DNA of 47,070 nt from Bacteroidales bacterium (GTDB lineage Bacteria > Bacteroidota > Bacteroidia > Bacteroidales > UBA932). Made by a program: the position numbers and the translations under genes. Shown here one piece after another: positions 20,970 through 40,624 of the stretch. Position 1 is the first letter of the stretch, and each line of letters opens with the position of its first letter. Under the pieces are notes generated by a model. That model was not told the DNA's origin. It saw only the letters and a program-made list of their open reading frames with translations, and searched no databases. The stretch lies in assembly GCA_017559545.1 (NCBI GenBank), contig JAFYRK010000038.1:1-47070 (forward strand). The letters are read 5' to 3'.

Positions 20970-20977
20970 TAACTTTG
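20970..20977 (+). promoter_or_regulatory. PUL promoter -7 box
   Basis: TAACTTTG fits TAnnTTTG and lies 21 bases before the GH31 ATG at 20999. There is no TTTG at -33, consistent with a promoter that depends on an activator. Confidence 0.5.
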
Positions 20978-20998
20978 TCAATATTTAATATTGATTAC

Positions 20999-23806
20999 AT
21001 GAAAACAAGACTTCTAACCACTTTACTATTGTCGCTTCTAGCTGTTTGTGCCGTTGCACAAAATATTCCCGAACCGTTGAACTACCATCCGGAAGCATCT
21101 TCTGATGCGATCGTTCTTGCCGGCAAGGCGAGATTTACAGTATTGACTCCAAGACTGGTTCGAATGGAGTGGGTAGAAGACGCTTCGTTTGAAGACAGAG
21201 CGACTCTCGGAGTCGTCAATAGGGATCTTGATGTTCCTGAGTTTTCAGTAAAAAAGAGCAAATCAAAAGTTGTCATCAAGACATCTGGACTTACTCTGTC
21301 CTACACTGGTCAGGAAAAATTTTCAAGCGAAAACTTGAGCGTGTCTTTTATAATGGCGGATCCATCTGCAAAGAAAGGTATTAGAACTGTTACATGGACT
21401 CCTGGCATGGATGATTCTGCTAATCTTTTGGGAACAGTCCGTACGCTTGATAAATTTGACGGAACCCAGACAAGGGAGCCATATGACAAGGGTGTTCTTT
21501 CCCGTGATGGATGGGCTATCTTGGATGAAAGCGACAGACATGTCTTTACATCTGTAGATAGTGATTGGCAGTATTGGCCAGAGTGCAGAGACAAGAAGGA
21601 AAGGCAGGATATTTACTTCTTTGGTTATGGCCATGACTATACTCAAGCATTGGGTGATTATGTAAAAATTGCCGGAAGAATTCCTCTCCCTCCAAAGTAC
21701 GCCTTAGGCTATTGGTGGAGCCGTTATTGGGAATATTCTGATACGGAACTTGTTGGCCTTGCCGATGATTTCAGATCATATGGTGTGCCTATTGATGTAA
21801 TGATAATTGACATGGATTGGCATGAGACATGGAATGAGAAGTCAAGAAACTCCACCAGAAGACATTCAAGCAATCGTTACGGTCTTGATGAGTTCGGAGA
21901 ACGTATCGGCTGGACCGGCTACACATGGAAAAAAGAACTTTTCCCTAATCCAGCTAACCTTATGGAGGCTCTGCACCGCAGAGATGTCAAGACATCCTTG
22001 AATCTCCACTTCATGAACGGTATTCAGCCTTTCGAAGAACCGTACGATAGATTTGTTAAGGATTACCTGTCCCGCACCGATAACTACGACGGCCCGAAGG
22101 ACTATGTATATACCGACAAACCCTATGTGTTCCAATCGTATAAAGAATCATTCGCAGTAGAGGGCCAGCAGGCACCTGTTCCTTTCAGAATATGTCAAAT
22201 GGAATGGGCGGATGCGTATTTCAATTCAATTATTCGCAAATTCGATGATTTGGGAGTTGACTTCTGGTGGCTGGACTGGCAGCAGTGGAGAAACAGCAAA
22301 TATATACCAGGATTGAATAATACATTTTGGCTCAACCATACATTTTTCAATGATAAAGTTCGCCAAACAGCCTCACAAGGCATCCGCGCACCAAGACCAT
22401 TGATATATCACAGATGGGGAGGCATTGGAAGCCATCGTTATCAAGTGGGCTTTTCAGGTGACACCTATGCCTCATGGCAGGTTCTCGGATATCTTCCATA
22501 CTTCACGGCAACAGCCTCTAATGTCGGTTATGGCTACTGGGGTCATGACATTGGTGGTCACATGCAGCCGAAAGGCGTAAATAAAACTGATCCTGAACTT
22601 TATACAAGATGGATACAGTCCGGCGTGTTTAATCCTATTTTCAAGACACACTCGTCTAAGAATATGACCATGGAGAAGAGATTCTGGGTATTCCCTGATC
22701 ACTTCAAGGCGATGAAGGATGCAATACGCCTCAGATATGATCTGTCACCTTATATCTATAATGCTGCAAGACAGGCATACGATACAGGAGTTTCGATATG
22801 CAGACCTCTTTACTACTATTGGCCAGAGGATGACAAGGCTTATCAATGGAAGGAAGAATTCATGTTCGGTGACGATATTCTGGCCACAGTAGTATGCAAT
22901 CCTGTAGATAAGATTACAGCCCTTGCGGAGCGCACTATGTGGTTCCCGACAGGAACAGATTGGTATGATGTGTCAACAGGAGTGACATATAAGGGTGGCT
23001 CAGAGCATACTCTTCTATATACCGTAGAAGAAAACCCATACTATGTGAAAGCAGGCGCTGTAATTCCTATGGCATCACCGGAAATTATGCATCTGCAGAA
23101 GCAATATGAAGATATACGTCTTTTTGTAGCTCCAGGTGAGGGTGAAAGCAGGACTATTGTCTATGAGGACGATGGGAATTCGCAGGCTTATGAGTCAGAA
23201 TATGCCCTAACAGAGGTCGTCAAGAAGACAGAGAATAATACTGTGACAATAAGTGTAGCTCCACGAAAAGGAACATTTGAAGGGATGAAGGACAATCGTA
23301 GAGTGAGTGTCGTGCTTGAATGCGTCTTACCTCCGACAAGTGTCAAGGTTAACGGACAGCTCGTTCCGTATTCTCGCTTTGCCTCATTTGACCAGAAGAA
23401 TGGTGAACCGGTCTGGGGCTATGATGGAAGCAAACTGCAGACTCAGATATGGCTTGCAAGTACAGATGCCTCTCAAGCGCTTGAAATCGCATGCACATTT
23501 GACAGCCCTATGTCTGAACAGACAGCGATGCTCTCAGGCAAAAAGGGTCTCTTCACCCGAATGACTCTTATAACACCTGAGGCAAAGCTGAGATTCTCGC
23601 AGATGAGAATTGCGGACATTCAGTTGCCGGCAGAACTTATGGCTGTTGCACAAGGTGGTAGCTTCATTACTGAAGATCCTGAAAATGCTGTGAAATACAT
23701 CAACGCATTAGATATAGATGCAATGAACCAGAATCTGGCAAGCTGGGAAAAACTCTCTCTTGACTTCAAGACAAGGGTTGCAGCACAGACTAAGTTTGAG
23801 AAATAA
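20999..23806 (+). CDS. GH31-family glycoside hydrolase
   Basis: The 935-residue secreted enzyme starts with a signal peptide (MKTRLLTTLLLSLLAVCAVAQ). It then has the GH31 N-terminal beta-sandwich, the (beta/alpha)8 barrel and a C-terminal DUF5110-like region. Signature stretches are ALGYWWSRYWEYSD, VMIIDMDWHETW, DFWWLDWQQW with the predicted nucleophile D426, and FSGDTYASW with the predicted acid/base D488. The WLDWQQ form differs from the WxDMNE of classical alpha-glucosidases and points to another GH31 subgroup, so alpha-glucosidase, alpha-xylosidase or alpha-galactosidase specificity cannot be chosen. The start at 20999 is preferred over one 42 bases upstream because the signal peptide begins there. 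It is the first gene of the PUL transcript. Confidence 0.93.
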   Translation: MKTRLLTTLLLSLLAVCAVAQNIPEPLNYHPEASSDAIVLAGKARFTVLTPRLVRMEWVEDASFEDRATLGVVNRDLDVPEFSVKKSKSKVVIKTSGLTLSYTGQEKFSSENLSVSFIMADPSAKKGIRTVTWTPGMDDSANLLGTVRTLDKFDGTQTREPYDKGVLSRDGWAILDESDRHVFTSVDSDWQYWPECRDKKERQDIYFFGYGHDYTQALGDYVKIAGRIPLPPKYALGYWWSRYWEYSDTELVGLADDFRSYGVPIDVMIIDMDWHETWNEKSRNSTRRHSSNRYGLDEFGERIGWTGYTWKKELFPNPANLMEALHRRDVKTSLNLHFMNGIQPFEEPYDRFVKDYLSRTDNYDGPKDYVYTDKPYVFQSYKESFAVEGQQAPVPFRICQMEWADAYFNSIIRKFDDLGVDFWWLDWQQWRNSKYIPGLNNTFWLNHTFFNDKVRQTASQGIRAPRPLIYHRWGGIGSHRYQVGFSGDTYASWQVLGYLPYFTATASNVGYGYWGHDIGGHMQPKGVNKTDPELYTRWIQSGVFNPIFKTHSSKNMTMEKRFWVFPDHFKAMKDAIRLRYDLSPYIYNAARQAYDTGVSICRPLYYYWPEDDKAYQWKEEFMFGDDILATVVCNPVDKITALAERTMWFPTGTDWYDVSTGVTYKGGSEHTLLYTVEENPYYVKAGAVIPMASPEIMHLQKQYEDIRLFVAPGEGESRTIVYEDDGNSQAYESEYALTEVVKKTENNTVTISVAPRKGTFEGMKDNRRVSVVLECVLPPTSVKVNGQLVPYSRFASFDQKNGEPVWGYDGSKLQTQIWLASTDASQALEIACTFDSPMSEQTAMLSGKKGLFTRMTLITPEAKLRFSQMRIADIQLPAELMAVAQGGSFITEDPENAVKYINALDIDAMNQNLASWEKLSLDFKTRVAAQTKFEK

Positions 23807-23819
23807 TCAATACTACGAC

Positions 23820-24227
23820 ATGAAAGCACTGAGAAAGATTTTAGGGCTCTTAAGTATTTTGTCATTGACAATTTCCTGCTCTCCGGAGTTGACTGACAAT
23901 ACTACATTCTCGTTACATTATTATGACGCAGAGGTAATTATCGGTGGATCGAGCGTAATCTTATCTCCGTCTTATATAGGAGATAAGCCAACGGATTTCA
24001 GGATTGACAATATCACAAGGAATGGCATGATTGAATATGATCCCATACTCGATGGCCCTCTGACTGAAAAGGATGTATTTTATATATACCCGGATACTGG
24101 AGACCTGATAATTCAAAATACAGCCGGCAAGAAGACAGGAACCTATCATGTCAGTATTTCTTGTAGCTCAGCAGGAAAGTCATATAGTTTTCCAGAGTTG
24201 ATAACTCTTAAAATGCTATCAGAATGA
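23820..24227 (+). CDS. Small PUL lipoprotein, unknown
   Basis: The 135-residue product has a lipoprotein signal ending LTISC (C20) and one Ig-like or cadherin-like beta domain of about 110 residues that ends in a strand just before the stop. It sits directly before susC and overlaps it by ATGA at 24224-24227, so the two are translationally coupled. A surface or periplasmic partner of the SusCD complex is plausible. I do not recognise a named family. Confidence 0.72.
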   Translation: MKALRKILGLLSILSLTISCSPELTDNTTFSLHYYDAEVIIGGSSVILSPSYIGDKPTDFRIDNITRNGMIEYDPILDGPLTEKDVFYIYPDTGDLIIQNTAGKKTGTYHVSISCSSAGKSYSFPELITLKMLSE

Positions 24228-27200
24228 AGAAGATTATAATTTACCTTTCGGGCATTTTCTTCGGTATTCAGCTATATGCCCAGGATATTCAGTTATCTGG
24301 AACTGTTAGAGATAACCAGGGTGAGCCCCTAATCGGAGTTGCTGTTTTTATAGAGGGGTCTTCTAATGGAGCGATGACAGATATAGATGGCAAATATTCC
24401 ATTTCTGTTCCTTCAAAGGCCGTGGTGACTTTTGACTATATGGGGTTCCGCCAAGTAAGGGAGTCTGTGTCCGGCAGAAAAATCATTGATGTTGTAATGG
24501 AAGAAGACAGGACTCTTATAGATGAGGCTGTTGTAGTAGGTTATGGAACAATGAAAAGGAGTGATCTTACGGGTTCGGTTTCTTCTGTGTCTGCCAAAAA
24601 TCTTGAAAATTTCAAAACTGCGAATGTTCTGGAAGCCCTTGGTGGACAGGTGGCAGGAGTAAATATCACGACAACAGACGGTACTCCCGGATCAGGCCTC
24701 AATATTATAGTCAGAGGCGTGGGTACAGTTAATGGAGATTCCTCTCCTTTGTATATCGTAGATGGTTTTGAAGTTGATGGCATCGATCATATTGCAAATC
24801 AAGATATTGCGTCAATAGAAATACTGAAGGATGCTTCAGCGTCTGCTATTTATGGAGCTAGAGCCGCAAATGGAGTGGTCCTTTTGACAACAAAATCTGG
24901 ACGCGAATCCAAGGCCGTGATATCATATAGCGGTTCTGCCAGCTTCAGAACATTGTCAAAGAGGCTTGAAGTTCTCAATCCTTATGACTATGTTTCACTG
25001 CAGTGTGATAGAAACTTTGATAATGCAGATATGTATTTCTCCTTGGGAACTGATGTCAATGGTGTACCTTATAAATATCAGACTGTAGAGGACTATAAAG
25101 GCTTGTCGGGAATCAATTGGCAAGACGAAGCTTTTCATAATACTTGGTCTCAGAGCCACGATATAAGTGTTTCCGGTGGTTCTAAGTCAACAAAGTATGT
25201 GGTTTCCTTCTCTCATTTTGATGAGGATGGCATCTTCCTAAATAGTGGATACGCCAAGAATTCGGCTCGCGTGAAACTTCGTCAGCAATTCCGCGAATGG
25301 CTTGATGCAGACTTGAATTTGAGTTATACACATCAGAATAAATATGGTCTAGGAACCGGAGGGTCAGTCTTGAGGAATATTCTTTGTTATAGACCGACAG
25401 GTGGCTTACGCTACACTGATGCTGAACTCATAAATTCAGCATCAGACCCTGGTATCGATAATAGTTATAACAGCCATTTCAATCCGCTGATAGCAACAAC
25501 GACTGCAGATTTAGGGAAAGTAACCCATACCTGGGTAGCAAACGGCTCTCTGAATTTTACCTTATATAAAGGACTGACCTTCAAAACATCTGGAAGTTTC
25601 AATCAGTCGTTTATCAGAGATGATTATTTCTATTATGACGGTAGTGAATATGCGGCTCGATCAGGTGGCGCATATGGTCAGTCAACAACGTACTTGAACT
25701 ACAGATGGGCAATTAGCAATGTTCTTACTTATGAGAAGACATTTGCTAAAAAGCACAAAATGACAATAATGGGTGGTCAGGAATATCAGGTTCAAGGTTC
25801 AGAGTACCTTCGAGGACAGGCTAAAGAATTGTCTTTAGATAAGTTAGGAATAGATAAGCTTGATGCAGGCGAACCATCCTTAGTGGAAACTACACGTTCC
25901 GACAAGAAACGTCTCTCCTTCTTTGCAAGAGGATTCTACAGTTACGATAACAGATATATGTTCACAGCAACAATAAGGGCTGACGGTTCTTCTGTGTTTG
26001 CACCGAAGAACCGATGGGGAGTGTTCCCTTCCTTTGCAGCAGCCTGGACCATCTCCAACGAGCCGTGGATGTCGTCAACAAAGAATTGGATCGATAATCT
26101 AAAACTTAGAGTGGGCTATGGCACCGTTGGTAATGACCGAATAACAAGTTATCAGACCGCTGATCTATATTCAATATCTAAATATGGTCATGGCTCTTCT
26201 TCCGTTGCTGCTCTGCTGACCAATTCTTGTTATAACCCTGATTTGCGATGGGAAGGTGCAACTACCATCAACGCGGGTGTTGACTTCTCTGTATTTAATA
26301 GTAGATTGTCTCTTTCTGTCGATGCGTTCCAAAAAGATACCAAGGACCTGCTTCTTCAGCAGAACCTTGCTTATGTCTCAGGTTGGGAATCGCAATGGCA
26401 GAATGTCGGAAAGATTCGCAACAGAGGATTGGAGTTAAGTTTGAAGACCATCAATATCAATAAGCGTAATTTTTCATGGTCAACAGAATTTAACATATCC
26501 TTCCTGTCCAACAAGCTTGTTTCACTTCAGGATGGTACGGAGTATATGCAGGTAAGGACTAACTTCGATTCGAACAATACCAACAACGACTATATCGCTA
26601 TTGTAGGTCAACCTTTAGGTAATATGTATGGTTATGAGTTCGATGGAGTCTATCAATTCTCGGATTTTATAATGAAGGCAGACGGCACCCTAAAGCTTAA
26701 AGATGGTGTCGTGGATAATTCTGCGCACACAGGCTTGGATCCGGTTCCTGGCTTTGTAAAATACAAGGATCAGTTGACCATAGATACCGACGGAGATGGA
26801 ATTCCGGACAAAGGCGATGGGAAAATCACCTCGGCCGACCGAACCGTCATCGGTAATGGATATGCGGACTGGTATGGCGGTATGACAAACACATTCCACA
26901 TCTATGGCTTCGACCTTTCTGTAGTACTGCAGTATTCATACGGAAACGATGTTTATAATGTAACAAGATATCGTGCGACTCAGACTACTGAAAACGGTCT
27001 TAACATGCTCGCAGAAGTTCGTGACAGATGGACTCCATACCACGCATCTAACGCTGTACCATCCGTGAAAGGAATCAAGATGCATGACATTTATTCACGA
27101 TACATCGAGGACGGATCATATTTACGCCTCAAAAATATCACATTGGGATATACATTTCCGGATAAATGGATAAACCGCATCAAAGTGAGCAAGCTCAGAT

Positions 27201-27355
27201 TGTATGCTACTGCAAACAATCTTTATTGCTTCACCAGATACAGTGGTTATGATCCGGAGGTTAATGGAAAGAATAGTCCTCTAATGCCAGGACTTGACAA
27301 TGGCTCTTATCCTAAAAACACAGCCTATACAATGGGCTTGGAAATCACTTTCTAA
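24224..27355 (+). CDS. SusC/RagA-family TonB-dependent transporter
   Basis: This 1043-residue outer-membrane importer has a signal peptide ending YAQD, and a carboxypeptidase-like regulatory domain (GTVRDNQGEPLIGVAVFIEG, about 25-105). It then has the SusC signature with a plug domain (DEAVVVGYGTMKRSDLTGSV, GTPGSGLNIIVRGVGT, about 110-230) and a 22-strand barrel that ends in an aromatic residue (GLEITF). With SusD it imports oligosaccharides by a TonB-powered pedal-bin mechanism. It overlaps the preceding lipoprotein gene and is followed by susD after 12 bases. Confidence 0.97.
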   Translation: MKKIIIYLSGIFFGIQLYAQDIQLSGTVRDNQGEPLIGVAVFIEGSSNGAMTDIDGKYSISVPSKAVVTFDYMGFRQVRESVSGRKIIDVVMEEDRTLIDEAVVVGYGTMKRSDLTGSVSSVSAKNLENFKTANVLEALGGQVAGVNITTTDGTPGSGLNIIVRGVGTVNGDSSPLYIVDGFEVDGIDHIANQDIASIEILKDASASAIYGARAANGVVLLTTKSGRESKAVISYSGSASFRTLSKRLEVLNPYDYVSLQCDRNFDNADMYFSLGTDVNGVPYKYQTVEDYKGLSGINWQDEAFHNTWSQSHDISVSGGSKSTKYVVSFSHFDEDGIFLNSGYAKNSARVKLRQQFREWLDADLNLSYTHQNKYGLGTGGSVLRNILCYRPTGGLRYTDAELINSASDPGIDNSYNSHFNPLIATTTADLGKVTHTWVANGSLNFTLYKGLTFKTSGSFNQSFIRDDYFYYDGSEYAARSGGAYGQSTTYLNYRWAISNVLTYEKTFAKKHKMTIMGGQEYQVQGSEYLRGQAKELSLDKLGIDKLDAGEPSLVETTRSDKKRLSFFARGFYSYDNRYMFTATIRADGSSVFAPKNRWGVFPSFAAAWTISNEPWMSSTKNWIDNLKLRVGYGTVGNDRITSYQTADLYSISKYGHGSSSVAALLTNSCYNPDLRWEGATTINAGVDFSVFNSRLSLSVDAFQKDTKDLLLQQNLAYVSGWESQWQNVGKIRNRGLELSLKTININKRNFSWSTEFNISFLSNKLVSLQDGTEYMQVRTNFDSNNTNNDYIAIVGQPLGNMYGYEFDGVYQFSDFIMKADGTLKLKDGVVDNSAHTGLDPVPGFVKYKDQLTIDTDGDGIPDKGDGKITSADRTVIGNGYADWYGGMTNTFHIYGFDLSVVLQYSYGNDVYNVTRYRATQTTENGLNMLAEVRDRWTPYHASNAVPSVKGIKMHDIYSRYIEDGSYLRLKNITLGYTFPDKWINRIKVSKLRLYATANNLYCFTRYSGYDPEVNGKNSPLMPGLDNGSYPKNTAYTMGLEITF

Positions 27356-27367
27356 AACAATCTGGTA

Positions 27368-29146
27368 ATGAGAAAGATAATATACATAATTTTAACGGTG
27401 TCGCTTATTGTGCAGTCATGCAGTCTTGACGAGAACTATTATGTGCATATCGAGAAAGATTCATATATAGAGGATGCTTCAACAGCTAGAGATGTTCTCT
27501 TTGGTCTATATCGCGATTTGGCCAGCCTGGATCTATATGGACATCGCCTATCTATATGTTATGACCTTCCCACTGATATATCCAAGGTTGATGGCAACTC
27601 ATTAGCCAATAACAGGGACTTTTGCAATAACGCACACTCTTCAACAAATGCCTGGGTCCAAAATACCTGGAGAGCTGCTTATAAGACAATCTATGATGCC
27701 AATAGCTTTATTGAAAGCGTGGACAAATCTTGGCCAAGACTTTCAGAAAATGACAAAAAGATTGTTGAAGTCTATGTGGCTGAAGCTCGAGTGATCAGAG
27801 CTCTTATGTATTTCGAGCTTGTTCGCAACTGGAAAAATATCATTCTGATTACAAGTGTTGAAGAGTCGAGACAACACCCATCAACATTTGAACAGGATGA
27901 TCCTGAAGATGTGTATGAGTTTATTGAAAAAGAGTTGAAGGAGTCTGCAGCTGTCCTACCATGGGCCACATCTGACAATATTAGAATGGACAATAGCTTT
28001 ATGGTCTCGAAAGGTAGTGCCTATGCCCTCCTTGCTCGCGTCTGTGTTACATGGGCTGGATATCCTATGCATAATGAATTGAAATGGAAAGAAGCGAAGG
28101 ATGCTTGTGACTCAATCATCACATCAGGTAAACATGGACTCTTGGCTGATTATGAGGATCTATGGAAGAACTCATGTAATTCAAAATGGGATCCAACCGA
28201 AAGTCTATTTGAAATAAGTTTCTATTCTCCGTCCATTTCAAGTGCTTCGTCAAATAACTGTAGTGGATATATTGGAAAATGGAATGGTGTTTATGTCGTG
28301 ACTAACACAACCTCTTTAGTGCGTGTTGATGCAAGATATAGGGCCATTGCGACCTTTGCTGCAGGTTGGCCAGAGCCTCGTAGAGATAAGAGGTTTTCTC
28401 TAAGTATCGCAGATTATTATTATGAGGGAACCACGAAATTAGGAAAGCAAACTATTGACGACGCAGGTACCGTGAGGTGGTACGAGGAGTCCTCTAGAGA
28501 CGGCATTCGAAAGGTTTATCGTGTAGATGGCAGTAATAAAATTGATTTTATGACAACTATTGATAATCCATATAATCTATCTGCCAAATTCCCATACAGG
28601 GAGGGACTATATGTTGCCAAGTGGGATCTTACCAAATATGTTGAGCCGGGGAAGCAGCTTGCTGACGGCAATCAATCAAACGCGAATTGGTATCTTTTGA
28701 GATACTCAGATGTACTTTTAATGTATGCTGAGGCTATAAATGAAATTTCTGGCCCCAATGCAGATGCTTATGCAGCTGTGAATATGGTCCGCCGTCGAGG
28801 ATACGGATGCAAGTCTTTATTAGAAGACGCGCCGGACATTGACCTGCCGTCAGGTTTGAGTCAAGAGCAGTTCCGCGATGCTATAAGAAAAGAAAGGGCA
28901 TATGAGTTGTGTTTTGAAGGGAACAGAAAGCAGGACTTAATCAGATGGGGAATATATGCCAAATCCGTTGTGGATGTCGCTCCTGCTATGAATGTCTGGT
29001 GTGATGGTGCAAGTTCATACATTCTCGCAGCTCAATATACTGACTATGTTGACGGAGAGGAAAGTAAGCACAATTTACAGCCGATACCTCAAAGAGAACT
29101 AGATCTTATGACCAAATTTGAACAAAACCCTAAATGGGGAAAATAA
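27368..29146 (+). CDS. SusD/RagB-family glycan-binding lipoprotein
   Basis: This 592-residue lipoprotein (lipobox IVQSC, C18) is the lid and ligand-binding partner of SusC. The TPR-like N-terminal half with ARVIRALMYFELVRNW and the C-terminal RKERAYELCFEGNRKQDLIRWG motif are diagnostic of the family. Length is typical. The next lipoprotein gene starts 17 bases after its stop codon. Confidence 0.97.
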   Translation: MRKIIYIILTVSLIVQSCSLDENYYVHIEKDSYIEDASTARDVLFGLYRDLASLDLYGHRLSICYDLPTDISKVDGNSLANNRDFCNNAHSSTNAWVQNTWRAAYKTIYDANSFIESVDKSWPRLSENDKKIVEVYVAEARVIRALMYFELVRNWKNIILITSVEESRQHPSTFEQDDPEDVYEFIEKELKESAAVLPWATSDNIRMDNSFMVSKGSAYALLARVCVTWAGYPMHNELKWKEAKDACDSIITSGKHGLLADYEDLWKNSCNSKWDPTESLFEISFYSPSISSASSNNCSGYIGKWNGVYVVTNTTSLVRVDARYRAIATFAAGWPEPRRDKRFSLSIADYYYEGTTKLGKQTIDDAGTVRWYEESSRDGIRKVYRVDGSNKIDFMTTIDNPYNLSAKFPYREGLYVAKWDLTKYVEPGKQLADGNQSNANWYLLRYSDVLLMYAEAINEISGPNADAYAAVNMVRRRGYGCKSLLEDAPDIDLPSGLSQEQFRDAIRKERAYELCFEGNRKQDLIRWGIYAKSVVDVAPAMNVWCDGASSYILAAQYTDYVDGEESKHNLQPIPQRELDLMTKFEQNPKWGK

Positions 29147-29163
29147 ACTATAAATATAATTAT

Positions 29164-29649
29164 ATGAAACATTTAAAACTACTCGTATTTCTTGCTGCGG
29201 CATTGTCTGTAATGATGGTGTCTTCATGTAAGAAACAGTCCGAGCCAACAGTCTCGGCAGAATTGTCTGTTGAAATAACAGACATAAAGGCCGTCAGTGC
29301 CAGACTCTCAATTACTTGTGAAAAAGGCAACCCGACACTAGTTCGTTATCTGGCACCAACACTCAAGTCCGATGTAATCGCAGCTACAGGTAGCGTAGAG
29401 AACAAGACAGCAGTTGAAACATTTATCACAAGAAATGGTAATGCAATAGCACTGCCATATAATGTTCTATTGAAGGATCTTATGCCGGAAACAGAATATG
29501 TGGTAGGAGTTGCGGCATTTGACTCTTCTATGAAGGTTATTGCTAGCGAAGTGAAAGTGTTTACGACTCTTGATCTGAATTCCATGTTTGATGAATCTCT
29601 CGGTGACCCGAGCGGTGCTGGAGATTTGACTGAAAATATCATTAAATAA
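29164..29649 (+). CDS. PUL lipoprotein with fibronectin-III-like domain
   Basis: The 161-residue product has a lipobox MVSSC (C22) and one FN3-like beta-sandwich in which LMPETEYVVGVAAFDS matches the typical L-x-P-x-T-x-Y strand signature. The C-terminus is a short acidic Gly/Ser-rich tail. It occupies the slot after susD where surface glycan-binding proteins are usually encoded. Binding partner is unknown. Confidence 0.75.
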   Translation: MKHLKLLVFLAAALSVMMVSSCKKQSEPTVSAELSVEITDIKAVSARLSITCEKGNPTLVRYLAPTLKSDVIAATGSVENKTAVETFITRNGNAIALPYNVLLKDLMPETEYVVGVAAFDSSMKVIASEVKVFTTLDLNSMFDESLGDPSGAGDLTENIIK

Positions 29650-29657
29650 GTATGGTC

Positions 29658-31901: not shown

Positions 31902-31919
31902 CACATTAAAATAACACGT

Positions 31920-32069: not shown

Positions 32070-32080
32070 TAGTGACGGTT

Positions 32081-34090
32081 ATGAAGAAGATTTTTTATTT
32101 AATGAGCGTTTGTGCTCTGGCCTTCATTTCTTGTCAGAAGGAAGAGATGGCTGACAATGCACAGTCAGGAAAGTTTAATTACACTTTCACAGCAAATCAT
32201 GTCTTGGATACAAAGGCTACTGTAAGTGATAAAACTGACAATAAGTGGCCGGTTCTTTGGGAAAAGGGTGACCAGTTGGGCGTTTACCTTGCTGACGGAA
32301 CATTTGTTGGTATTGCAAATCTGACAGATGAATCTGCTGGAAAGAACAGCGGAACATTCACACTCTCTACCGAAACAGAAATTGCAGACGGAACAGCCCT
32401 TAAATTCTCTTACCCTTATGTGGAGAATGCTGTTTCCGGAACAGGTGTTGTGGCTGCAGAGCAGACTCTTGCTTCAGCGGCATCTGCGGGTGTCGGAGCA
32501 AATGCTGTCGCTTTTGCGGAGGCAGTATATGTCCAGGGCCAGACCAATGTAGTCCTTAATCATGTTAATGCATATTTGAAATTCAATATCGCATCAGCGG
32601 AAGACGCCTTCGCAGGATATAATCTTGATGGAATTACTCTATGGGCGGACGATGCTGCTGTTTCCGGAAACATTGATGGCAACGCCTACAGCAACACGGG
32701 CGATTATGTAAAGGTTTCTTTGACTTCGCCAGTAACAGTGGGAACACAGGCTCAGCCTCTTTGGCTCACATCCCTTCCTGCTGATCTGTCAGAGTGCAAG
32801 AAAGTATATGCGATTGTTCACATGAGTAAAGGAACTGAAACGGTCACACTTCCAGTAAGATTGAATGGTGCAGGAAACCTTCCTGCCGGTTCTGTGACAG
32901 AAATTACACTTCCATCTCTTACAAAATCCCTCGCACCTGCATGGTATGAGCCGGTAGAAACTCGTTATATTGCAGCTTATGGAGAAGGCTGGTGCTATGG
33001 TCCTGAGAACACTGTGCTGTTTACAGCAAAAAATGTTGCCAAGACAGTTGAACTGAAAGCGAGAGGAAACTTCATGAATGTAGTAGAACCAGTATATGTT
33101 CAGGTATTGTATGCGTCTAACCAGTCACAGGATAAAACAACGGGATTCGTTAAATTTGATGGTACGGATTCCTACAGTGGAGGATTCATTGACCATGAGA
33201 TAGGTGATGATTATTCTGTGTCTGTTTCAATAGGAAATGTCAACAATTCTTCTGCCAATGGCCAGATTTCAGCTGTGCTTGTCAAGGATAGCAACAAAAA
33301 TACTATTTGGGGAATCAATCTATGGGCTTGCTTTAATGCTTTGAAAACGGTGACATACGACAATGGTACTATTCTGACATATGATCTAGGTGCTGGCAAC
33401 ACGATTGATGCCTATAACGATTGGAAGAGTCAAGGATGTTATTTCCAATGGGGACGACCTTGGGCTTTTCCATACTCTGATAAAGACGAATTTGGCTGGA
33501 CTAGAGTTCCTACATCAAATGCTGTAACGCTTGCTAAGTCTGCATCAACACCGTGGGCGATGTATAACTATAATGGCGAACCATATGATTGGTATTGGGG
33601 TGATGGAAATAAAACAGACCGCTCTGGTGATCTTGATGACTTGTGGGGTAATCCGACTTCTTCTGGAGTAGGTGTGAAGTCTATTTATGACCCATGTCCT
33701 AAAGGTTACAGGGTAGCGGACCCCGCAATATTGAACGAAATTGAGAGTGGAATCAACGCCTCGATTGATGAGACAACTGGCGCTATTACATCGGCTGAAG
33801 GGGCTGCTACTGAAATTGTTACTTCTACTTCTCTATATTACTTGAAGCATAAAGGAGTTGCATGGAGTTTTGCTGGAGCACATCAGAATGCTTCCGGTAG
33901 CAATAGCAGAATCGAGAATAAGGTAGATGCAGCTGTTTATTGGTCAAATGCTATCTCGGGAAACCAGGCAAGAGCGATGTGGGTTAGAAAGAAGAAAGCC
34001 AATAATAAGTATTCTATTGAGCGATTGACAGGCCGTTCTCGAGCTTTGGCGGCACAAGTACGTTGTATGGTAGATACAGAAGATCGTTAA
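32081..34090 (+). CDS. Fimbrillin-like lipoprotein 2 in the PUL
   Basis: The 669-residue product has lipobox AFISC (C18), a fimbrillin-like N-terminal region (LWEKGDQLGVYL, VVLNHVNAYLKFNIA, LWLTSLPADLS), a middle beta domain and a C-terminal region with CYFQWGRPW, YDPCPKGYRVADP and VYWSNA. The order and motifs match the gene at 29658, so the two arose by duplication, although they have diverged clearly in sequence. The start at 32081 begins the signal peptide directly. An intrinsic terminator follows the stop. Confidence 0.8.
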   Translation: MKKIFYLMSVCALAFISCQKEEMADNAQSGKFNYTFTANHVLDTKATVSDKTDNKWPVLWEKGDQLGVYLADGTFVGIANLTDESAGKNSGTFTLSTETEIADGTALKFSYPYVENAVSGTGVVAAEQTLASAASAGVGANAVAFAEAVYVQGQTNVVLNHVNAYLKFNIASAEDAFAGYNLDGITLWADDAAVSGNIDGNAYSNTGDYVKVSLTSPVTVGTQAQPLWLTSLPADLSECKKVYAIVHMSKGTETVTLPVRLNGAGNLPAGSVTEITLPSLTKSLAPAWYEPVETRYIAAYGEGWCYGPENTVLFTAKNVAKTVELKARGNFMNVVEPVYVQVLYASNQSQDKTTGFVKFDGTDSYSGGFIDHEIGDDYSVSVSIGNVNNSSANGQISAVLVKDSNKNTIWGINLWACFNALKTVTYDNGTILTYDLGAGNTIDAYNDWKSQGCYFQWGRPWAFPYSDKDEFGWTRVPTSNAVTLAKSASTPWAMYNYNGEPYDWYWGDGNKTDRSGDLDDLWGNPTSSGVGVKSIYDPCPKGYRVADPAILNEIESGINASIDETTGAITSAEGAATEIVTSTSLYYLKHKGVAWSFAGAHQNASGSNSRIENKVDAAVYWSNAISGNQARAMWVRKKKANNKYSIERLTGRSRALAAQVRCMVDTEDR

Positions 34091-34103
34091 TTTTGTACAT
34101 GGA

Positions 34104-34147
34104 GAGGGTGTGTTCTCGGGAAGACTCTTGGAACATACCCTCTTTTT
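34104..34147 (+). terminator. Terminator inside the PUL, before the lyase genes
   Basis: GAGGGTGTGTTC (34104-34115) pairs with GAACATACCCTC (34131-34142) with one G-T pair, then TTTTT. It lies between fimbrillin-like gene 2 and the first lyase gene, all on the same strand, so part of the transcription should stop here and the lyase genes would be expressed at a lower level or from their own promoter. Confidence 0.75.
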
Positions 34148-34163
34148 AAAAATATTATTTTCA

Positions 34164-36239
34164 ATGAAGAGATTGATGTTTCTTATATTTTTACTTTCGT
34201 GTCTGTCATTTCTGAACATAGGGTGTTCGGAACCAGATCCTATTGTACCGGATGATACAGAAATTAATGGCGGAAATAATGATGACGGAGGTTCTGAGGA
34301 TAATGGAAATGTCAATCCAACCCCTCCGGACGAATTTATTGAGGAACCGAATGATCCTTCTGCCGACCCTCAAAGTGCCTATGGCTTGGATTACTCTAAG
34401 CTTGCATCAGCAGGACATCCGCGATTGTTGATTGATGATGAGGGATTCAAGAGTCTTAAAAAGAAGGTAACAACCGATAAGCGGTTAAATAAGACTCTTT
34501 ATAAACTTCATACACAAATTTTGAAAAGGGCGGAGAAGATTGTGACCGAGAACAGGCAGTTTGCCGTTCCAAATGACCATTACTTAATTGTTGACAATCT
34601 TGTCTATTGCTCTTATGCCTATAAGATGACCGGTCAATCAGGATACCTTACAAAGGCAAAAGCAGATCTTTTAAAGACCTGTCGTTTCGGTGCTTGGAAT
34701 CCTTCCGGTCTTTCTATCGGCGAAATCTCTCTTGCTGTTGCGCTTGCGTATGATTGGCTGTATTACGACCTTTCGCTTGATGAAAGAAAATTAGTACATA
34801 AAGCCATGGTTGATAAAGGTATCCGACCTATGTATAATAGAAGCTATGCTGCAACAATTGGAAACTGGAACTCTATCTGTCTTGGTGGTGTTGCATGTGC
34901 TTCACTAGCTGTTTATGAGAAGGATAAAGACATTGCAGTTAAGCAGATAGAGAAGGCAATCAAAGAAAATCTTGTGGGAGTTAAGGGCATCTATAGTCCC
35001 GATGGAAACTATGCAGAAGGCTGCGGATATTGGGAATATGGCACTGCATGGGAGGTCTGCTTCCTATCATGTCTTGAAGATATATTCGGACAGACGGCAG
35101 GGATTAAGGAGACACCTGGTTTTATGCAGTCAGGTAAATATGCCATATATTCCCACGGAACCATGAATTCTCAATTCTCATATAACGATGGAGGCGGATC
35201 TGCGGATTCTCCATTCATTACATCATGGTGGTTTGCTGCAAAGAATGATGATCCTTCTCTTATATATGCAGAAAAAAGGATGCTGGACAATGGCGTATAT
35301 TCGGATGTTCCTTTGGAAAAGGAGGGATTTCGTCTGTTACCTGCCATGCTTTGCATGATTGAGGATTATGACTTTGAATCAAAGACAATAGCTCCTCCAA
35401 CTGACGATATCTGGCAGGGAGATGGTGAGATGCCGATAGTGATAGTCAGAAAAGGTTGGAACTTTGACGAGTCAGATGTATACCTTGGCATCAAGGCCGG
35501 TCATTGCAATACATGGAAGACATCAGCGACAGCTCATTCTCATATGGATATTGGTTCGTTTGTTTTTGAGGCTGAAGGCGTAAGGTGGTCAGACGACATC
35601 CAACGTCCGGGCTACACGGCATGGTTCGATGCATTGAGCAAGGCAGGAAGCCGTTCAGGAGACACTTCTCAATCAGGTCTCCGTTGGGATACTTTCCGAG
35701 TAAGTAATCTATGCCACAGCACAATAGTATCTTCTACAAATGATGGGTCCGTAGCCGGCAAATTGCACTCTACAGATTATTATGTCGATGGTAACGCCTT
35801 AATTGATAAGGTAATTGACTCTGATGGAAGGCAGGGTGCTCTTGTCAACATGACAGAGCCGATGAAAGGTCAAGTGGCAAGGGCTTATCGTACTGTAGAA
35901 CTTGTAAATGGAAACGAATTGGTGGTTACGGATGAAATAACAGCACTTTCATCCATGGATTGTAAGTTAGAGTGGCGAATCTTTTCAGTTTCTTCATCAT
36001 CCGTTACAGACTCAGAAGTTGTCCTTACAAAGAATGGAAAGAAACGAACATTGACAGTGAGTTCATCCAATCCATCTGTTACAACACAGTACACGACCTG
36101 GCCAGCGAATAAGCCTACTGGAGATGGCTGGGGTGTGCTGAATTTTGCACAAGGTATATCCGACAGAACAATAGCAGGCTGGACAGCAACCATACCAGCA
36201 GGTATGACTGTGAAATTTGTTACAATCCTGAAGAAATGA
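34164..36239 (+). CDS. Heparinase II/III-family polysaccharide lyase, lipoprotein
   Basis: The 691-residue product has a lipobox LNIGC (C21) and then an acidic, Asn/Pro-rich linker (about 25-75) that would hold the enzyme away from the membrane. An (alpha/alpha) toroid follows (about 85-400) with GNWNSICLGG, and then a heparinase II/III beta-sandwich with AHSHMDIGSFVFEAEG (H458, H460). Such enzymes cut uronic-acid polysaccharides by beta-elimination and leave 4,5-unsaturated ends. The exact PL family and substrate cannot be set from sequence alone. The gene overlaps the next by ATGA, linking it to the PL8 lyase. Confidence 0.87.
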   Translation: MKRLMFLIFLLSCLSFLNIGCSEPDPIVPDDTEINGGNNDDGGSEDNGNVNPTPPDEFIEEPNDPSADPQSAYGLDYSKLASAGHPRLLIDDEGFKSLKKKVTTDKRLNKTLYKLHTQILKRAEKIVTENRQFAVPNDHYLIVDNLVYCSYAYKMTGQSGYLTKAKADLLKTCRFGAWNPSGLSIGEISLAVALAYDWLYYDLSLDERKLVHKAMVDKGIRPMYNRSYAATIGNWNSICLGGVACASLAVYEKDKDIAVKQIEKAIKENLVGVKGIYSPDGNYAEGCGYWEYGTAWEVCFLSCLEDIFGQTAGIKETPGFMQSGKYAIYSHGTMNSQFSYNDGGGSADSPFITSWWFAAKNDDPSLIYAEKRMLDNGVYSDVPLEKEGFRLLPAMLCMIEDYDFESKTIAPPTDDIWQGDGEMPIVIVRKGWNFDESDVYLGIKAGHCNTWKTSATAHSHMDIGSFVFEAEGVRWSDDIQRPGYTAWFDALSKAGSRSGDTSQSGLRWDTFRVSNLCHSTIVSSTNDGSVAGKLHSTDYYVDGNALIDKVIDSDGRQGALVNMTEPMKGQVARAYRTVELVNGNELVVTDEITALSSMDCKLEWRIFSVSSSSVTDSEVVLTKNGKKRTLTVSSSNPSVTTQYTTWPANKPTGDGWGVLNFAQGISDRTIAGWTATIPAGMTVKFVTILKK

Positions 36240-38266
36240 GAAAGATGACGAATAGAGTTTTGGTGTTTTTAGTGGCAGTCACATTATCTCTGAATCTATC
36301 TGCTTCTCCCCTTGATGACCTCCGCAGATCCTTTGTGGAGGCTTCCGCTGTTTCATATGCTCCAAACGACGAGGTGACAGAGAGATTTGTAAAATATTCA
36401 GATAATGGTAGGGCAAATGATGTTCTGCTATTGCAGCTCTATATGTCTGTCCACCTACCCGATGCAGAGGTGGAAAACCTCCTTGCAGAGTTTGATTGGG
36501 AGAAGAAATGCTGGAAGGATATAGATTATGCAGATATGAACAGAGGCCGATGGCCATCGACTCTCCATATAACTCGTATGTATTCTTTGGCTAAAATATA
36601 CAAAGCCGGCAATGCTAGGTGGAAGGATTCTGAGCAGATAAGTAGACTTCTCCATCTTGCAATGTCCTGGTGGTATGAGAATATGCCTAAATGTCCCAAC
36701 TGGTGGCATAATGATATCGGAGTACCGAAGAAACTTACAGCGGTGCTTCTGATGATTCGGGACGAACTCTCGCAGGAAGAGATTTCCGGTGGTCTTAAGG
36801 TCTTGGAAAGGTCGAAGTTCGGTAGGACCGGACAGAACAAGGTGTGGCTTGCCGGAAACAATCTGATGAAAGGCCTTCTTATAGATGATGAGGCTCTTGT
36901 AATCAAGGCTCGTGACTTGATTGCTGAGGAAATGTGTCTGACTGATGAGGAGGGAATACAAGAGGATTGGTCCTTTCATCAGCACGGGCCACAGATCCAG
37001 TTCGGAAACTATGGACTTACCTATGTTGAGACTATATCCTTCTGGCTTCGAGCTCTTAAAGGAACGAAATATGATTTCACCCCTGAGCAGAAGCAGATTG
37101 TATGTAATCTGATGAAGGAGGGTATCTGTTGGTCTGTATATAAGGGTGTAATGGATCCGAGTTATTGCGGAAGGCAGAATTTTATTGACGGAGGAACTGG
37201 AAAGGCATATTCATTGGCTGTCGCTGCCCAGAATATGGCTGCCGCAATAGATGCAGAAAGAGATTTCTTTACCAATGTATCAAACGAGTGCCTTCTTCCC
37301 GAATTGTATGAAAATTCTCTGACCGGAGCCAGATATTATTGGCGTTCTGATTGTGGCATTTATCGAACACCTTCATGGTATGCTTCTGTGAGAATGCATT
37401 CTGAAAGGACAGTCGGCTTTGAGTTTACCAACAAGGAGAACACGCTTGCCAATTTCTCTGCCGATGGCGCAGTGATACTTATGCAGGATGCCAAGGAGTT
37501 TGAAAATATATTTGCATATTGGGATTGGCGCAAGGTCCCAGGTGTAACCTCATATGACGATGGCAAACCTATTAAATGTGACGATTCAATTGAGGGTAAG
37601 AAAAACAACTCGTCTCATGTAGGCGGTATTGTGGCTGAAGGAGTGATGGCAGCGACAATGGAGTTAAACAGGGATGGACTATATGCTTTGAAGAGTTCTT
37701 TCTTCTTTGATGATTGCGTGGTTTGTCTCGGTACAGATATCCGAGGGTCAAATCTTGAATTCAAGTCCATTATCACAACTATAGATCAGATTCATCTTCA
37801 GGGTAAGGTCAAGACTGGCGACAATTGGGTGCACCATGCCGGACGAGGCTATGTCAGTTTGGATGGAGCTAAGATTAATGTTACTACTGATCTGCAGAAG
37901 GGCAAATGGGATCTGATAGATCCTGCATTTAAGGAGAAATGGGACGAAGGAAAAGTGTTTAAATGTTGGTTTGAACATCCTGTGAACGGTACTGCCGGTT
38001 CATACGCATACGCTATTTTACCTTGTATTAAAAAAGGCCAGGTTGCCGCTATGGCTAAGAAGATCAGCGACACAAAAAAATCTCCAATAAAAGTTCTTCG
38101 CAATGATTCCTTGTGTCAGGCAGTGAAACATGATGATGTACTTGTGGCAGTGTTTCATAGTGAAGGCCAATACGAACTTGATGGACAAATCTTTGTTGCA
38201 GAATCTCCGAAGATTGTCGTTAAAGGTATAGAGAAGGCAGAGTGTAAATTAGTTAATCTAGAATAA
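36236..38266 (+). CDS. PL8-family polysaccharide lyase
   Basis: This 676-residue secreted lyase has the PL8 alpha-toroid with NWWHNDIGVP (155-164) and DWSFHQHGPQIQFGNYG (244-260). Aligned by motif, H250, Y259, R313 and E396 keep exactly the spacing I recall for His225, Tyr234, Arg288 and Glu371 of Flavobacterium chondroitinase AC, so the active site looks complete. The signal peptide (about 1-24) has no lipobox. Family members cleave chondroitin, hyaluronan or xanthan by beta-elimination. An internal ATG at 36245 is a possible alternative start. It sits between the heparinase-type lyase and the GH88 gene, which handles the unsaturated product. Confidence 0.92.
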   Translation: MRKMTNRVLVFLVAVTLSLNLSASPLDDLRRSFVEASAVSYAPNDEVTERFVKYSDNGRANDVLLLQLYMSVHLPDAEVENLLAEFDWEKKCWKDIDYADMNRGRWPSTLHITRMYSLAKIYKAGNARWKDSEQISRLLHLAMSWWYENMPKCPNWWHNDIGVPKKLTAVLLMIRDELSQEEISGGLKVLERSKFGRTGQNKVWLAGNNLMKGLLIDDEALVIKARDLIAEEMCLTDEEGIQEDWSFHQHGPQIQFGNYGLTYVETISFWLRALKGTKYDFTPEQKQIVCNLMKEGICWSVYKGVMDPSYCGRQNFIDGGTGKAYSLAVAAQNMAAAIDAERDFFTNVSNECLLPELYENSLTGARYYWRSDCGIYRTPSWYASVRMHSERTVGFEFTNKENTLANFSADGAVILMQDAKEFENIFAYWDWRKVPGVTSYDDGKPIKCDDSIEGKKNNSSHVGGIVAEGVMAATMELNRDGLYALKSSFFFDDCVVCLGTDIRGSNLEFKSIITTIDQIHLQGKVKTGDNWVHHAGRGYVSLDGAKINVTTDLQKGKWDLIDPAFKEKWDEGKVFKCWFEHPVNGTAGSYAYAILPCIKKGQVAAMAKKISDTKKSPIKVLRNDSLCQAVKHDDVLVAVFHSEGQYELDGQIFVAESPKIVVKGIEKAECKLVNLE

Positions 38267-38267
38267 G

Positions 38268-39458
38268 ATGAAAAGAATATTTTGGGCATTGAGCATGGTT
38301 ATTATGGTAGCTTCGTGCACTAAGGAGGAAACGATGGAAGAACTCACTGAGCGTGTTTTCAAGCGTGCTGCAGTTCAAATGGAATATCTAGATACCGTCC
38401 TGGACAGTGTTGCAGTTTCTAAACCAGGAAATGCAGTATATCCTCGATCTATAAGACCGGACGGAACTTTTTGGGAGAGCAACTACAAATGGTGGTGCTC
38501 TGGCTTCTATCCCGGAACTCTCTGGTATGTATATGAATATACCGGCAACGAGACGTTTAAGGAGCTCGCTCTTAAGTATCAATCAGGTCTGGAGCCTCTC
38601 AGGTATCGTACAGACGACCATGATGTAGGATTTCAGCTGATGTGCAGTTATGGTAATTGCCTTCGCTTGACTGGAGATCAGGAGTGTGTGCCTGTGCTTA
38701 TCGACGGCGCAAATTCCCTTTCCACTCGTTTCAATCAAGAGGTAGGATGTACCCGTTCGTGGAGTTTCGGTAAATGGTCGTTCCCTGTCATCATTGACAA
38801 TATGATGAATATGGAACTCCTGCTTAAGGCGACGGAGTTGGGTGGAGATGATTCGTTGAAGAATATAGCAATTGCTCATGCACATACAACAATGAAGAAC
38901 CACTTCAGGGACGATAACAGTTGCTTCCATCTTGTGGACTATGACCCTGAAACAGGAGCGGTGGTAGGTAAGCAGACGGTTCAGGGATATGCTGATAATT
39001 CTGCGTGGGCACGTGGACAGGCGTGGGCCATATATGCATATCCAATGATTTATCGCTTTACTAAAGATCAGGAAATGCTGGATCACGCAGTTGCTATTGC
39101 AGAATATCTTCTTCCAAGAGTACCGGATGACGGTATTCCATATTGGGATTATGATGCACCGGATATTCCTGACGATGTTCGTGATGCATCGTCGGCAGCA
39201 ATTATGGCTTGCGGACTTATCGAACTGAGTACATATGTAGATGCTGAGAAGTCAGCCCGCTATCTTGCAATGGCAGAAAAGTCACTCCGTACATTGGCCA
39301 GTGATGAGTACTTGGCCGCAGAAGGTGAAAATTATGGTTTTCTGTTGAAGCATAGTACAGGTAACAAGAACAGAGACCAGGAGGTTGATGTTCCATTGAC
39401 TTATGCTGATTATTACTTCCTCGAAGCTCTTATGCGCTGGCAGAAACTTGTAAAATAA
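38268..39458 (+). CDS. GH88 unsaturated glucuronyl hydrolase, lipoprotein
   Basis: The 396-residue product has a lipobox MVASC (C17) and the (alpha/alpha)6 GH88 domain with WWCSGFYPGTLW, YADNSAWARGQAW and RDASSAAI. The probable catalytic Asp residues are D119 (HDVGF) and D177 (IDNMMN), at a spacing close to that of Bacillus unsaturated glucuronyl hydrolase. It hydrates the 4,5-unsaturated uronyl end left by a lyase and releases it. It starts 1 base after the PL8 stop, fitting a consecutive lyase-hydrolase step. Confidence 0.94.
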   Translation: MKRIFWALSMVIMVASCTKEETMEELTERVFKRAAVQMEYLDTVLDSVAVSKPGNAVYPRSIRPDGTFWESNYKWWCSGFYPGTLWYVYEYTGNETFKELALKYQSGLEPLRYRTDDHDVGFQLMCSYGNCLRLTGDQECVPVLIDGANSLSTRFNQEVGCTRSWSFGKWSFPVIIDNMMNMELLLKATELGGDDSLKNIAIAHAHTTMKNHFRDDNSCFHLVDYDPETGAVVGKQTVQGYADNSAWARGQAWAIYAYPMIYRFTKDQEMLDHAVAIAEYLLPRVPDDGIPYWDYDAPDIPDDVRDASSAAIMACGLIELSTYVDAEKSARYLAMAEKSLRTLASDEYLAAEGENYGFLLKHSTGNKNRDQEVDVPLTYADYYFLEALMRWQKLVK

Positions 39459-39466
39459 TTATGCTC

Positions 39467-40624
39467 ATGAAAAGGTTGTTATCTTTCTTGTGTATGGTGA
39501 TGGTTTTCACTGGAGCATATGCTCAGCACTATTATCAGGATGCAAAAAATCCACAAATGCTACGACATGCCACTCGCCACGAGCCGGTAAGAGTTGATAT
39601 AGTACTACCTCTGGTAAACGGATATAATATCTATACAGCAGATCTCCACACACATACAGTGTACTCTGATGGTCGTGTGACTCCATCTCATCGCGTTCAG
39701 GAAGCATGGCTTGATGGTATCGATATTATAGCCTTGACAGATCATATTGAGTATCGCCCTGTAGAAAAGGCTTTCTATAATTATTTGAAAGAATATACAG
39801 ACGAAGATTATCCTAAAAAGAGGGAAGATGCCTTGGCTAAGGTAGATTTGAACGTTTCGGTTAAAGAAGCTATAAGCGAGGGAGAAAAATACGGTATGGT
39901 CGTGATACCCGGTATTGAAATAACAAGAGATGGAACAAAGGTAGGGCATTTCAACGCTCTGTTCACTGTTGACAATAATCGTATCTATGACGAGGATCCA
40001 CTCAAGGCAATCCGAAATGCAAAGTTACAAGGTGCTCTTGTTATGCACAACCATCCAGGGTGGAGAAAGACAAGCATTGACTTCACTGAGACAGAAAAGC
40101 AGGCCTACCAAGAAGGTTTGATAGACGGAGTAGAGGTTATGAATGGTTCAGAGTTCTATCCGGGAATCATAGACAGAAGCCAAGAATGGAGATTGTTCAT
40201 CGCTGCAAATACGGATATTCATGGATCAACAAGCGATTATAGACTTCATGGACATTGGAGACCGATGACTTTGGTCTTCTCAAAAGACAAGACACTGGAA
40301 TCAGTTCGGGAAGCTCTGGATTCATGCCGGACTATTGCCCTAGGATTCGATACTTTGTGCGGCGACTCAGACCTGTTGAAAGACTTCTTTGCAGCATCTG
40401 TTGAAGTCGATCAAGTTGAAGTAGGTGACAATAGGTTTGTAATATTAAAGAATAAGACATCAATTCCTTTCTATGTGCAGAATGGAAATAGCAATCCTTA
40501 CTATCTGGAACCGCTTTCATCTATACGTAAAACCGTTAGTAAAACTGCAAAAAAAATTAAACTGACAGTTCTCAATATGTGGGATGGCGCTGACACCCAC
40601 CCTGTCGTGGAAATCAAGTTGTAG
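39467..40624 (+). CDS. Secreted PHP-domain phosphodiesterase (Sb-PDE-like)
   Basis: The 385-residue product has a signal peptide (MKRLLSFLCMVMVFTGAYA) and a PHP metal-dependent hydrolase domain with ADLHTHTVYSDG, LTDHIEY, IPGIEITRD, GHFNALF, MHNHPGW and ANTDIHG, which supply the metal-binding His and Asp ligands. A beta-rich C-terminal domain follows. Related proteins are named Sb-PDE-family phosphodiesterases. In this locus it could remove a phosphate ester or diester from the glycan or from a released sugar. The upstream ATG at 39461 is an alternative. It is the last PUL gene. Confidence 0.85.
   Translation: MKRLLSFLCMVMVFTGAYAQHYYQDAKNPQMLRHATRHEPVRVDIVLPLVNGYNIYTADLHTHTVYSDGRVTPSHRVQEAWLDGIDIIALTDHIEYRPVEKAFYNYLKEYTDEDYPKKREDALAKVDLNVSVKEAISEGEKYGMVVIPGIEITRDGTKVGHFNALFTVDNNRIYDEDPLKAIRNAKLQGALVMHNHPGWRKTSIDFTETEKQAYQEGLIDGVEVMNGSEFYPGIIDRSQEWRLFIAANTDIHGSTSDYRLHGHWRPMTLVFSKDKTLESVREALDSCRTIALGFDTLCGDSDLLKDFFAASVEVDQVEVGDNRFVILKNKTSIPFYVQNGNSNPYYLEPLSSIRKTVSKTAKKIKLTVLNMWDGADTHPVVEIKL

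Follow-up and report, generated by a model that had tools for sequence, protein, structure and literature searches.

A mosaic polysaccharide utilization locus with PL35-like and PL8 lyases, GH88 and no sulfatase in a Bacteroidales genome

The subject of this analysis is a polysaccharide utilization locus (PUL) at positions 20999-40624 of a 47,070-nucleotide contig (JAFYRK010000038.1; hereafter, the window) from the Bacteroidales bacterium assembly GCA_017559545.1 of the UBA932 lineage. From its gene content we read the locus as a candidate PUL for an unsulfated or low-sulfated polymer of glucuronic acid (GlcA) and hexosamine, of the hyaluronan or chondroitin kind, with a probability of about 0.55. 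This reading draws on the match of its heparinase II/III-type lyase to family PL35 and the conservation of that active site, the limits that sulfate sets on PL35 enzymes, a PL8 lyase nearest chondroitinase AC, the lack of sulfatases in the DNA covered at 21 related PL8 loci, the linkage and fusion of PL8 with PL35 and GH88 in relatives, and a sensor whose best match stands beside a PL8/PL35 locus. The mosaic makeup of the PUL, which is new here, combines a surface block (surface glycan-binding protein, SusC, SusD, lipoproteins and PL35) and a PL8-GH88 block, and gene trees agree with this division.

Lyases and operon layout

The PL35-like lyase (34164-36239, + strand; start inferred, with the open reading frame opening at 34110; PF07940 E 3.8e-6) aligns over residues 101-669 to the solved PL35 enzyme 8khv (E 1.3e-80), which places it in PL35 by sequence, and also matches 8khw (E 1.2e-63) and 9o3q (E 4.2e-34). 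Hand-mapping of the glycosaminoglycan (GAG) lyase GAGase II residues in PMC12088678 shows that its triad Asn192/Tyr246/His401 is kept as Asn252/Tyr307/His476, as are the metal ligands H478, D480, D496 and H536. Its lipoprotein signal, in which acidic residues follow the cysteine, suggests that the enzyme probably sits at the cell surface; signal peptides and lipoprotein signals throughout were judged by eye. Non-sulfated and 6-O-sulfated regions are open to cleavage by PL35 GAGases, which stop at 4-O-sulfated N-acetylgalactosamine and 2-O-sulfated uronate (PMC11262172), and chondroitin sulfate A is cut by BcPL35 only once desulfated (PMC12269599).

The PL8 lyase, which is chondroitinase AC-like (36236-38266, + strand; PF02278 E 1.4e-54, PF08124), carries the Lyase_8 and Lyase_8_N domains with the conserved Asn, His, Tyr and Arg of the family. 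Its nearest solved enzyme is chondroitinase AC (1cb8, E 1.2e-64), with xanthan and hyaluronate lyases next and mannuronate lyase weaker. Residues N201, H250, Y259, R313 and N399 are those named in PMC8733870, where docking of a related enzyme puts Arg292 in substrate binding; Arg292 of 1cb8 is replaced by Phe316 in the window enzyme. With 289 bits against a cut-off of 1000, the protein falls below the NCBIfam chondroitinase AC equivalog NF043001 and is not classed as chondroitinase AC itself. Its signal peptide suggests that it is probably periplasmic. The adjoining GH88 unsaturated uronyl hydrolase (38268-39458, + strand; PF07470 E 1.2e-8) has its domain above cut-off, carries a lipoprotein signal and aligns over residues 57-394 to its nearest match, 3wiw (E 1.7e-101).

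These genes belong to a tight operon at 20999-40624, with every gene on the + strand and gaps of at most ~180 bases (with inferred starts), which comprises a GH31 enzyme, a SusC/SusD pair, four further lipoproteins, the PL35-like lyase, PL8, GH88 and a PHP metallohydrolase. Adjacent susC and susD genes accompanied by enzymes and a regulator make this a SusCD-type PUL. Pfam, NCBIfam and PDB matches bore out the genes that an original prediction, made from the letters of this stretch, had named here on the + strand (GH31, SusCD, a heparinase II/III-type lyase, PL8, GH88 and PHP), and its operon start at 20999 coincides with the likely true start of GH31. The hybrid two-component sensor/regulator (HTCS), the further lipoproteins and the PL35-like identity of the heparinase II/III-type lyase go beyond that account.

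Upstream of the lyases, a small lipoprotein (23820-24227, + strand; start inferred) corresponds to the N-terminal region of BT4661-like surface glycan-binding proteins (PF16319 E 1.5e-17, profile positions 6-128 of 731). It is followed on the same strand by the SusC-type TonB-dependent transporter (24224-27355; TIGR04056, 895 bits), the SusD-type lipoprotein (27368-29146; PF07980 E 1.4e-36), a small lipoprotein without a Pfam match (29164-29649; start inferred), a fimbrillin-like (Mfa_like_1) lipoprotein (29652-31901; PF13149 E 5.7e-10) and a second lipoprotein related to the latter (32081-34090; no Pfam match, start inferred). The two large lipoproteins, which match the same genes in relatives, are probably surface glycan-binding proteins. 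Divergent to the operon lies the HTCS gene (16828-20784, - strand; Pfam Reg_prop, Y_Y_Y, HisKA, HATPase_c, Response_reg and HTH_18). Among the compared loci, it is matched best over its full length (42%) by the sensor adjoining the PL8/PL35 locus of genome G041 (G, C and L numbers are our labels for genomes, contigs and loci), and it is 30% identical to the HTCS of a heparan sulfate-type PUL on contig C31 of its own genome.

In the pathway that we infer, surface lipoproteins and SusD would hold the chain while the surface PL35 lyase cuts it, and SusC would import the pieces. Periplasmic PL8 would then cut these to unsaturated disaccharides, GH88 would remove the unsaturated uronate, and the HTCS would sense one of the products and switch the operon on. 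GH31 and PHP would be add-ons that might remove an alpha-linked glucose and an ester group where the polymer is decorated, or serve another glycan.

Relatives of the two blocks

Two samples, one of 199 genomes from the family and one of 400 from the genus, were searched for PL8 and gave 21 loci at 47-70% identity in 20 genomes, several of them cut by contig ends (one to 5.3 kb). A PL35 gene lies near PL8 at 17 of the 21, with one further weak match (23%), and was not seen at three (G742, G610 and G653); GH88 lies near PL8 at eight. Neither sulfatase, GH31 nor PHP was found near PL8 at any of the 21 loci in the DNA covered, where the 12 kb that separate GH31 from PL8 in the window exceed the DNA covered at some loci. 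Genome-wide searches of ten of the 20 genomes found GH31 (E 1e-20) in G041, G002 and G491 and PHP (E 1e-10) in G492, in each case on a contig other than that of PL8; where a genome was reached by way of a locus, its contig numbers were assumed to be identical. Not counted among the 21 are eight genus loci at 35-40% (nine PL8 genes), three family loci at 35-43% and weaker family matches; the eight genus and three family loci gave no PL35 match in the DNA covered.

In several relatives the enzymes are joined in a single chain. PL8 and PL35 form one open frame in G041 and G846 (L037:4210-8067 and L143:6239-10084), and PL8 and GH88 do so in G645, G536 and G817 (L136:12276-15482, L138:9444-12647 and L050:9896-13213). 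All five fusions lack an internal stop when tested, and together they are good evidence that PL8, PL35 and GH88 work together. Separately, G790 has an enlarged PL35 set in one genome, with three PL35-type genes within 8 kb on C34 (L212:3623-11446) and two more beside PL8 on C5 (L148:5735-9591).

The surface block has a different set of closest relatives. Among 350 genus genomes, the nearest SusC and PL35 genes share one block at each of two sites, G645:C1 and G189:C15, flanked by an AAA/DUF4143 gene and an alanine racemase gene. Identities at these two sites are 71-74% for SusC, 64-66% for SusD, 62-64% for PL35, 46-48% for the BT4661-like lipoprotein, 47-50% for the small lipoprotein and 51-54% for the Mfa-like lipoprotein; the lipoprotein at 32081-34090 has no match within either block. 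PL8, GH88, GH31 and PHP gave no match in the 36-37 kb around the two surface blocks, and G645 and G189 carry the PL8 block on other contigs, C24 and C9. The window thus joins two blocks that occur apart. The PL35 genes of both closest surface blocks (L208:16887-18980 and G645:C1:123828-125903) contain one in-frame stop each, so these copies may be decaying; each of the two genomes retains a further PL35 at its PL8 locus. A more distant surface block at G793:C56 has two PL35 genes (44-46%), both kinds of large lipoprotein (with a 30% match to that at 32081-34090) and GH88 (50%).

In the phylogenies, the window PL8 falls within a clade of 11 rows (100/99). The PL35 partners of that PL8 clade belong to a 12-row clade, and the window PL35 branches outside it.

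GH31, PHP and flanking genes

The GH31 enzyme (20999-23806, + strand, within an open reading frame at 20957-23806; PF01055 E 8e-57) is assigned to the GH31_u1 (alpha-1,3-glucosidase) group by its best match and the named active-site residues. By hand-mapping, H351, Q442, F499, D502 and H535 correspond to His280, Gln343, Phe391, Asp394 and His427 of LlGH31_u1 (7wj9; PMC9061262). In contrast to that enzyme, with which it shares these five residues, the window protein has a signal peptide, is longer (949 versus 759 residues) and has Arg143 where LlGH31_u1 has Tyr99. The N-terminal signal suggests a probably periplasmic enzyme. The original prediction had taken GH31 to mean alpha-linked sugars; the group does point to alpha-1,3-glucose, but the role of the enzyme in this locus is unproven. 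Across 21 GH31 neighbourhoods other than the window, two of them only 30-31% identical, nothing general emerged: a metallophosphoesterase with a major facilitator superfamily (MFS) transporter occurs in two and GH97 matches in two. The genes for the G041:C11 relative (57-59%), for an MFS transporter and for a metallophosphoesterase-GDPD protein form one run (L151:9321-15767), possibly for a glucosylated glycerophosphate compound, and the relative in G204 lies between metallophosphoesterases with an MFS gene nearby. These two neighbourhoods are the sole hint tying GH31 to phosphate chemistry and may reflect chance.

The PHP-family metallohydrolase (39461-40624, + strand; PF02811 E 2e-8) has a signal peptide, scores above the Pfam PHP cut-off (35.2 versus 26.4) and falls below that of the CehA/McbA model NF038032 (71.4 bits versus 80). 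The sequence carries metal-site motifs of His, Asp and Glu. Its solved relative 3e38 (E 1.2e-49), which we take to be a Bacteroides protein, is annotated merely as a predicted phosphoesterase. The domain suggests just a likely metal-dependent hydrolase. The earlier description as a phosphodiesterase was too strong, and a phosphate ester does not follow from the PHP protein by itself. None of 15 PHP neighbourhoods (L096-L108, L152 and L153, of which L102 and L104 span <4 kb) has a PL8, PL35, GH88 or GH31 match. A second PHP copy in the same genome (C28, 52%; L096:9047-11780) stands beside GH109 and hexuronate-catabolism genes, and a G492 copy (51%) lies near GH97. The idea that PHP targets the xylose phosphate of the GAG linkage region was dropped, as a literature search turned up no paper on it.

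Beyond the operon, a 289-residue gene of unknown function, a relaxase gene and a NikA-like mobilisation gene (40671-43242, - strand; PF03432 E 2e-29, PF21983 E 1.8e-6) adjoin the PUL and are outside the sugar pathway. Along 16556-47070, the GC fraction drops from 0.49 immediately ahead of a tRNA-Gln/tRNA-Met pair to 0.41-0.45 beyond it, and genes for a relaxase, a NikA-like protein and a DUF3987 protein occupy the far end of the window. A mobilisable island that entered at the tRNA genes may carry the PUL. The left-flank stretch 4001-6000 also has a GC fraction of 0.44. A search for attachment repeats gave nothing convincing, and comparison of the right flank with plasmids gave a single match of 68 bases.

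Substrate and comparison with known systems

No sulfatase Pfam match occurs among the PUL genes scanned, so the GAG sulfatases expected of a sulfated-GAG PUL are absent. A six-frame scan of the window for a sulfatase motif also found none while recovering both C31 controls. The statement of the original prediction that the locus lacks a sulfatase therefore stands, and its view of two beta-eliminating lyases and a GH88 acting on a uronate polymer, most likely an unsulfated one, agrees with PL35 biochemistry (PMC11262172) and with 21 PL8 loci that are sulfatase-free in the DNA covered. The source assembly (2.13 Mb, 150 contigs, 69% complete) holds three PF00884 matches, all on contigs C31 and C68; that on C68 lacks the sulfatase motif. 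The PUL on C31 is of the heparan sulfate type. It encodes three PL12-type proteins and one of heparinase II type, along with GH88, two sulfatases and a radical SAM/SPASM protein that may be the sulfatase maturase. One sulfatase is nearest a solved N-acetylglucosamine (GlcNAc)-6-sulfatase (5g2v, E 9e-271) and the other a solved 2-O-GAG sulfatase (3b5q, E 3e-59; 5g2t, E 9e-57). Related SusC, SusD, BT4661-like and GH88 proteins are common to the C31 PUL and the window, which has PL35 and PL8 instead of the PL12-type, heparinase II-type and sulfatase genes.

The preferred reading, an unsulfated or low-sulfated GlcA-hexosamine polymer, has several points weighing against it, some of which feed its competitors. 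That the substrate is instead sulfated GAG, desulfated by enzymes encoded outside the locus in the manner of B. thetaiotaomicron BT1596, is unlikely in our estimate. It draws on the C31 enzymes, on an assembly that is 69% complete, on the position of BT1596 outside its PUL and the use of some outside enzymes by known GAG PULs (PMC6994673), and on BcPUL25, which is thought to borrow a sulfatase (PMC12269599). At G555:C346, moreover, a more distant PL35 (38-41%) and GH88 (48%) stand beside a sulfatase with an intact motif, so PL35-GH88 loci of the genus can include sulfatases. All ten relatives searched genome-wide have PF00884 matches, 2 to 10 each, with none on the PL8 contig in G183, G189, G041 and G002; the remaining PL8 loci were judged by motif scan and by tblastn with the two C31 sulfatases only. 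Against sulfated GAGs stand the placement of the C31 sulfatases within a PUL of heparan sulfate type, the lack of sulfatases in the DNA covered at all 21 PL8 loci and the halting of PL35 enzymes at 4-O and 2-O sulfate. The original prediction had named sulfatases elsewhere as a finding that would count against it: two GAG-type enzymes are indeed encoded, but inside the separate heparan sulfate-type PUL.

The breakdown of plain hyaluronan or chondroitin leaves GH31 and PHP without a part, and two quite improbable readings give them one. The substrate might be a decorated GAG-like capsule with a GlcA-hexosamine backbone, alpha-1,3-glucosyl groups and an ester, in which case PL8 and GH88 would finish the backbone while GH31 and PHP strip the decorations. 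It is similarly doubtful that bacteria themselves supply the target, as a capsule or exopolysaccharide whose GlcA backbone bears alpha-glucosyl side groups for GH31 and perhaps a phosphate ester for PHP. The retained glucose-binding residues of GH31 (with Arg for Tyr99), the MFS and metallophosphoesterase genes near its G041 and G204 relatives and the presence of xanthan lyases in PL8 favor the latter; the window PL8 matches xanthan lyases and the mannuronate lyase, though more poorly than chondroitinase AC. That context, however, occurs in just two of 21 GH31 neighbourhoods, and the PHP neighbourhoods and PL8 loci fail to link GH31 and PHP with the lyases. Heparosan or unsulfated parts of heparan sulfate as main substrate seem slightly more improbable still. 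The surface proteins resemble those of the C31 PUL (SusC 55-56%, SusD 43%, and the BT4661-like lipoprotein), and unsulfated stretches of heparan sulfate are among the substrates of PL35 GAGases (PMC11262172). This is set against a PL8 nearest chondroitinase AC, a sensor nearer that of a PL8/PL35 locus, and closest SusC/SusD orthologs (G645:C1 and G189:C15) with no PL12 or sulfatase match in the DNA covered; among SusC genes at 48-58%, the surroundings looked at were those of C31 only.

The other adverse points concern the enzymes and trees themselves. PL35 position 251 is Gly where the GAGases have the neutralising Asn191 and an alginate-active enzyme has His; G149:C32 (L213:3550-10337) pairs a distant PL8 (27-29%) with two PL35-type genes (33% and 40%); and in Bacteroides the use of hyaluronan was not predicted by the clustering of PL8 with GH88 (PMC12877422). 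The window PL35 sits on a long branch of its tree, at a place flagged as unsure, and the rows of that tree exclude the G645:C1 and G189:C15 genes.

Should the preferred reading of an unsulfated or low-sulfated polymer hold, a gut genus would gain a GAG pathway that works without desulfation, and PULs would be seen to be reassembled from two modules, an exchangeable surface block and a conserved periplasmic one. For study, relatives already provide single-chain enzymes in their PL8-PL35 and PL8-GH88 fusions, and GH31 and PHP raise a concrete question about decorated GAG-like glycans.

No description of this gene set was found in the titles and abstract openings searched, the depth at which most papers were judged. 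The original prediction had set the locus apart from usual GAG loci, a contrast that gives way on comparison. The B. thetaiotaomicron PUL for chondroitin sulfate, dermatan sulfate and hyaluronan (BT3324-BT3350, PMC6994673) likewise combines SusCD, a surface lyase, surface binding proteins, periplasmic PL8, GH88 and an HTCS. Its surface lyase is PL29 and it includes two sulfatases, in contrast to PL35 and no sulfatase here, and the available part of that paper does not name GH31 or PHP for it. B. caccae PUL25 (PMC12269599) shares PL35 and GH88 without a chondroitin sulfatase, and its PL35 acts on unsulfated chondroitin. It also has GH109, a GH154 dehydratase and M60-like proteins, while PL8, GH31 and PHP are not named in the available text; GH109, which accompanies PL35 and GH88 in PUL25, has no match among the window PUL genes. 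With GAGases II and VII (8khv and 8khw; PMC12088678, PMC11262172) the window lyase has its sequence match, triad and metal ligands in common, whereas the substituted Asn and scores of 275 and 219 bits mark it as a distant member. That is to say, the locus appears from its genes to be a variation on a known PUL plan, with PL35, no sulfatase, and GH31 and PHP added.

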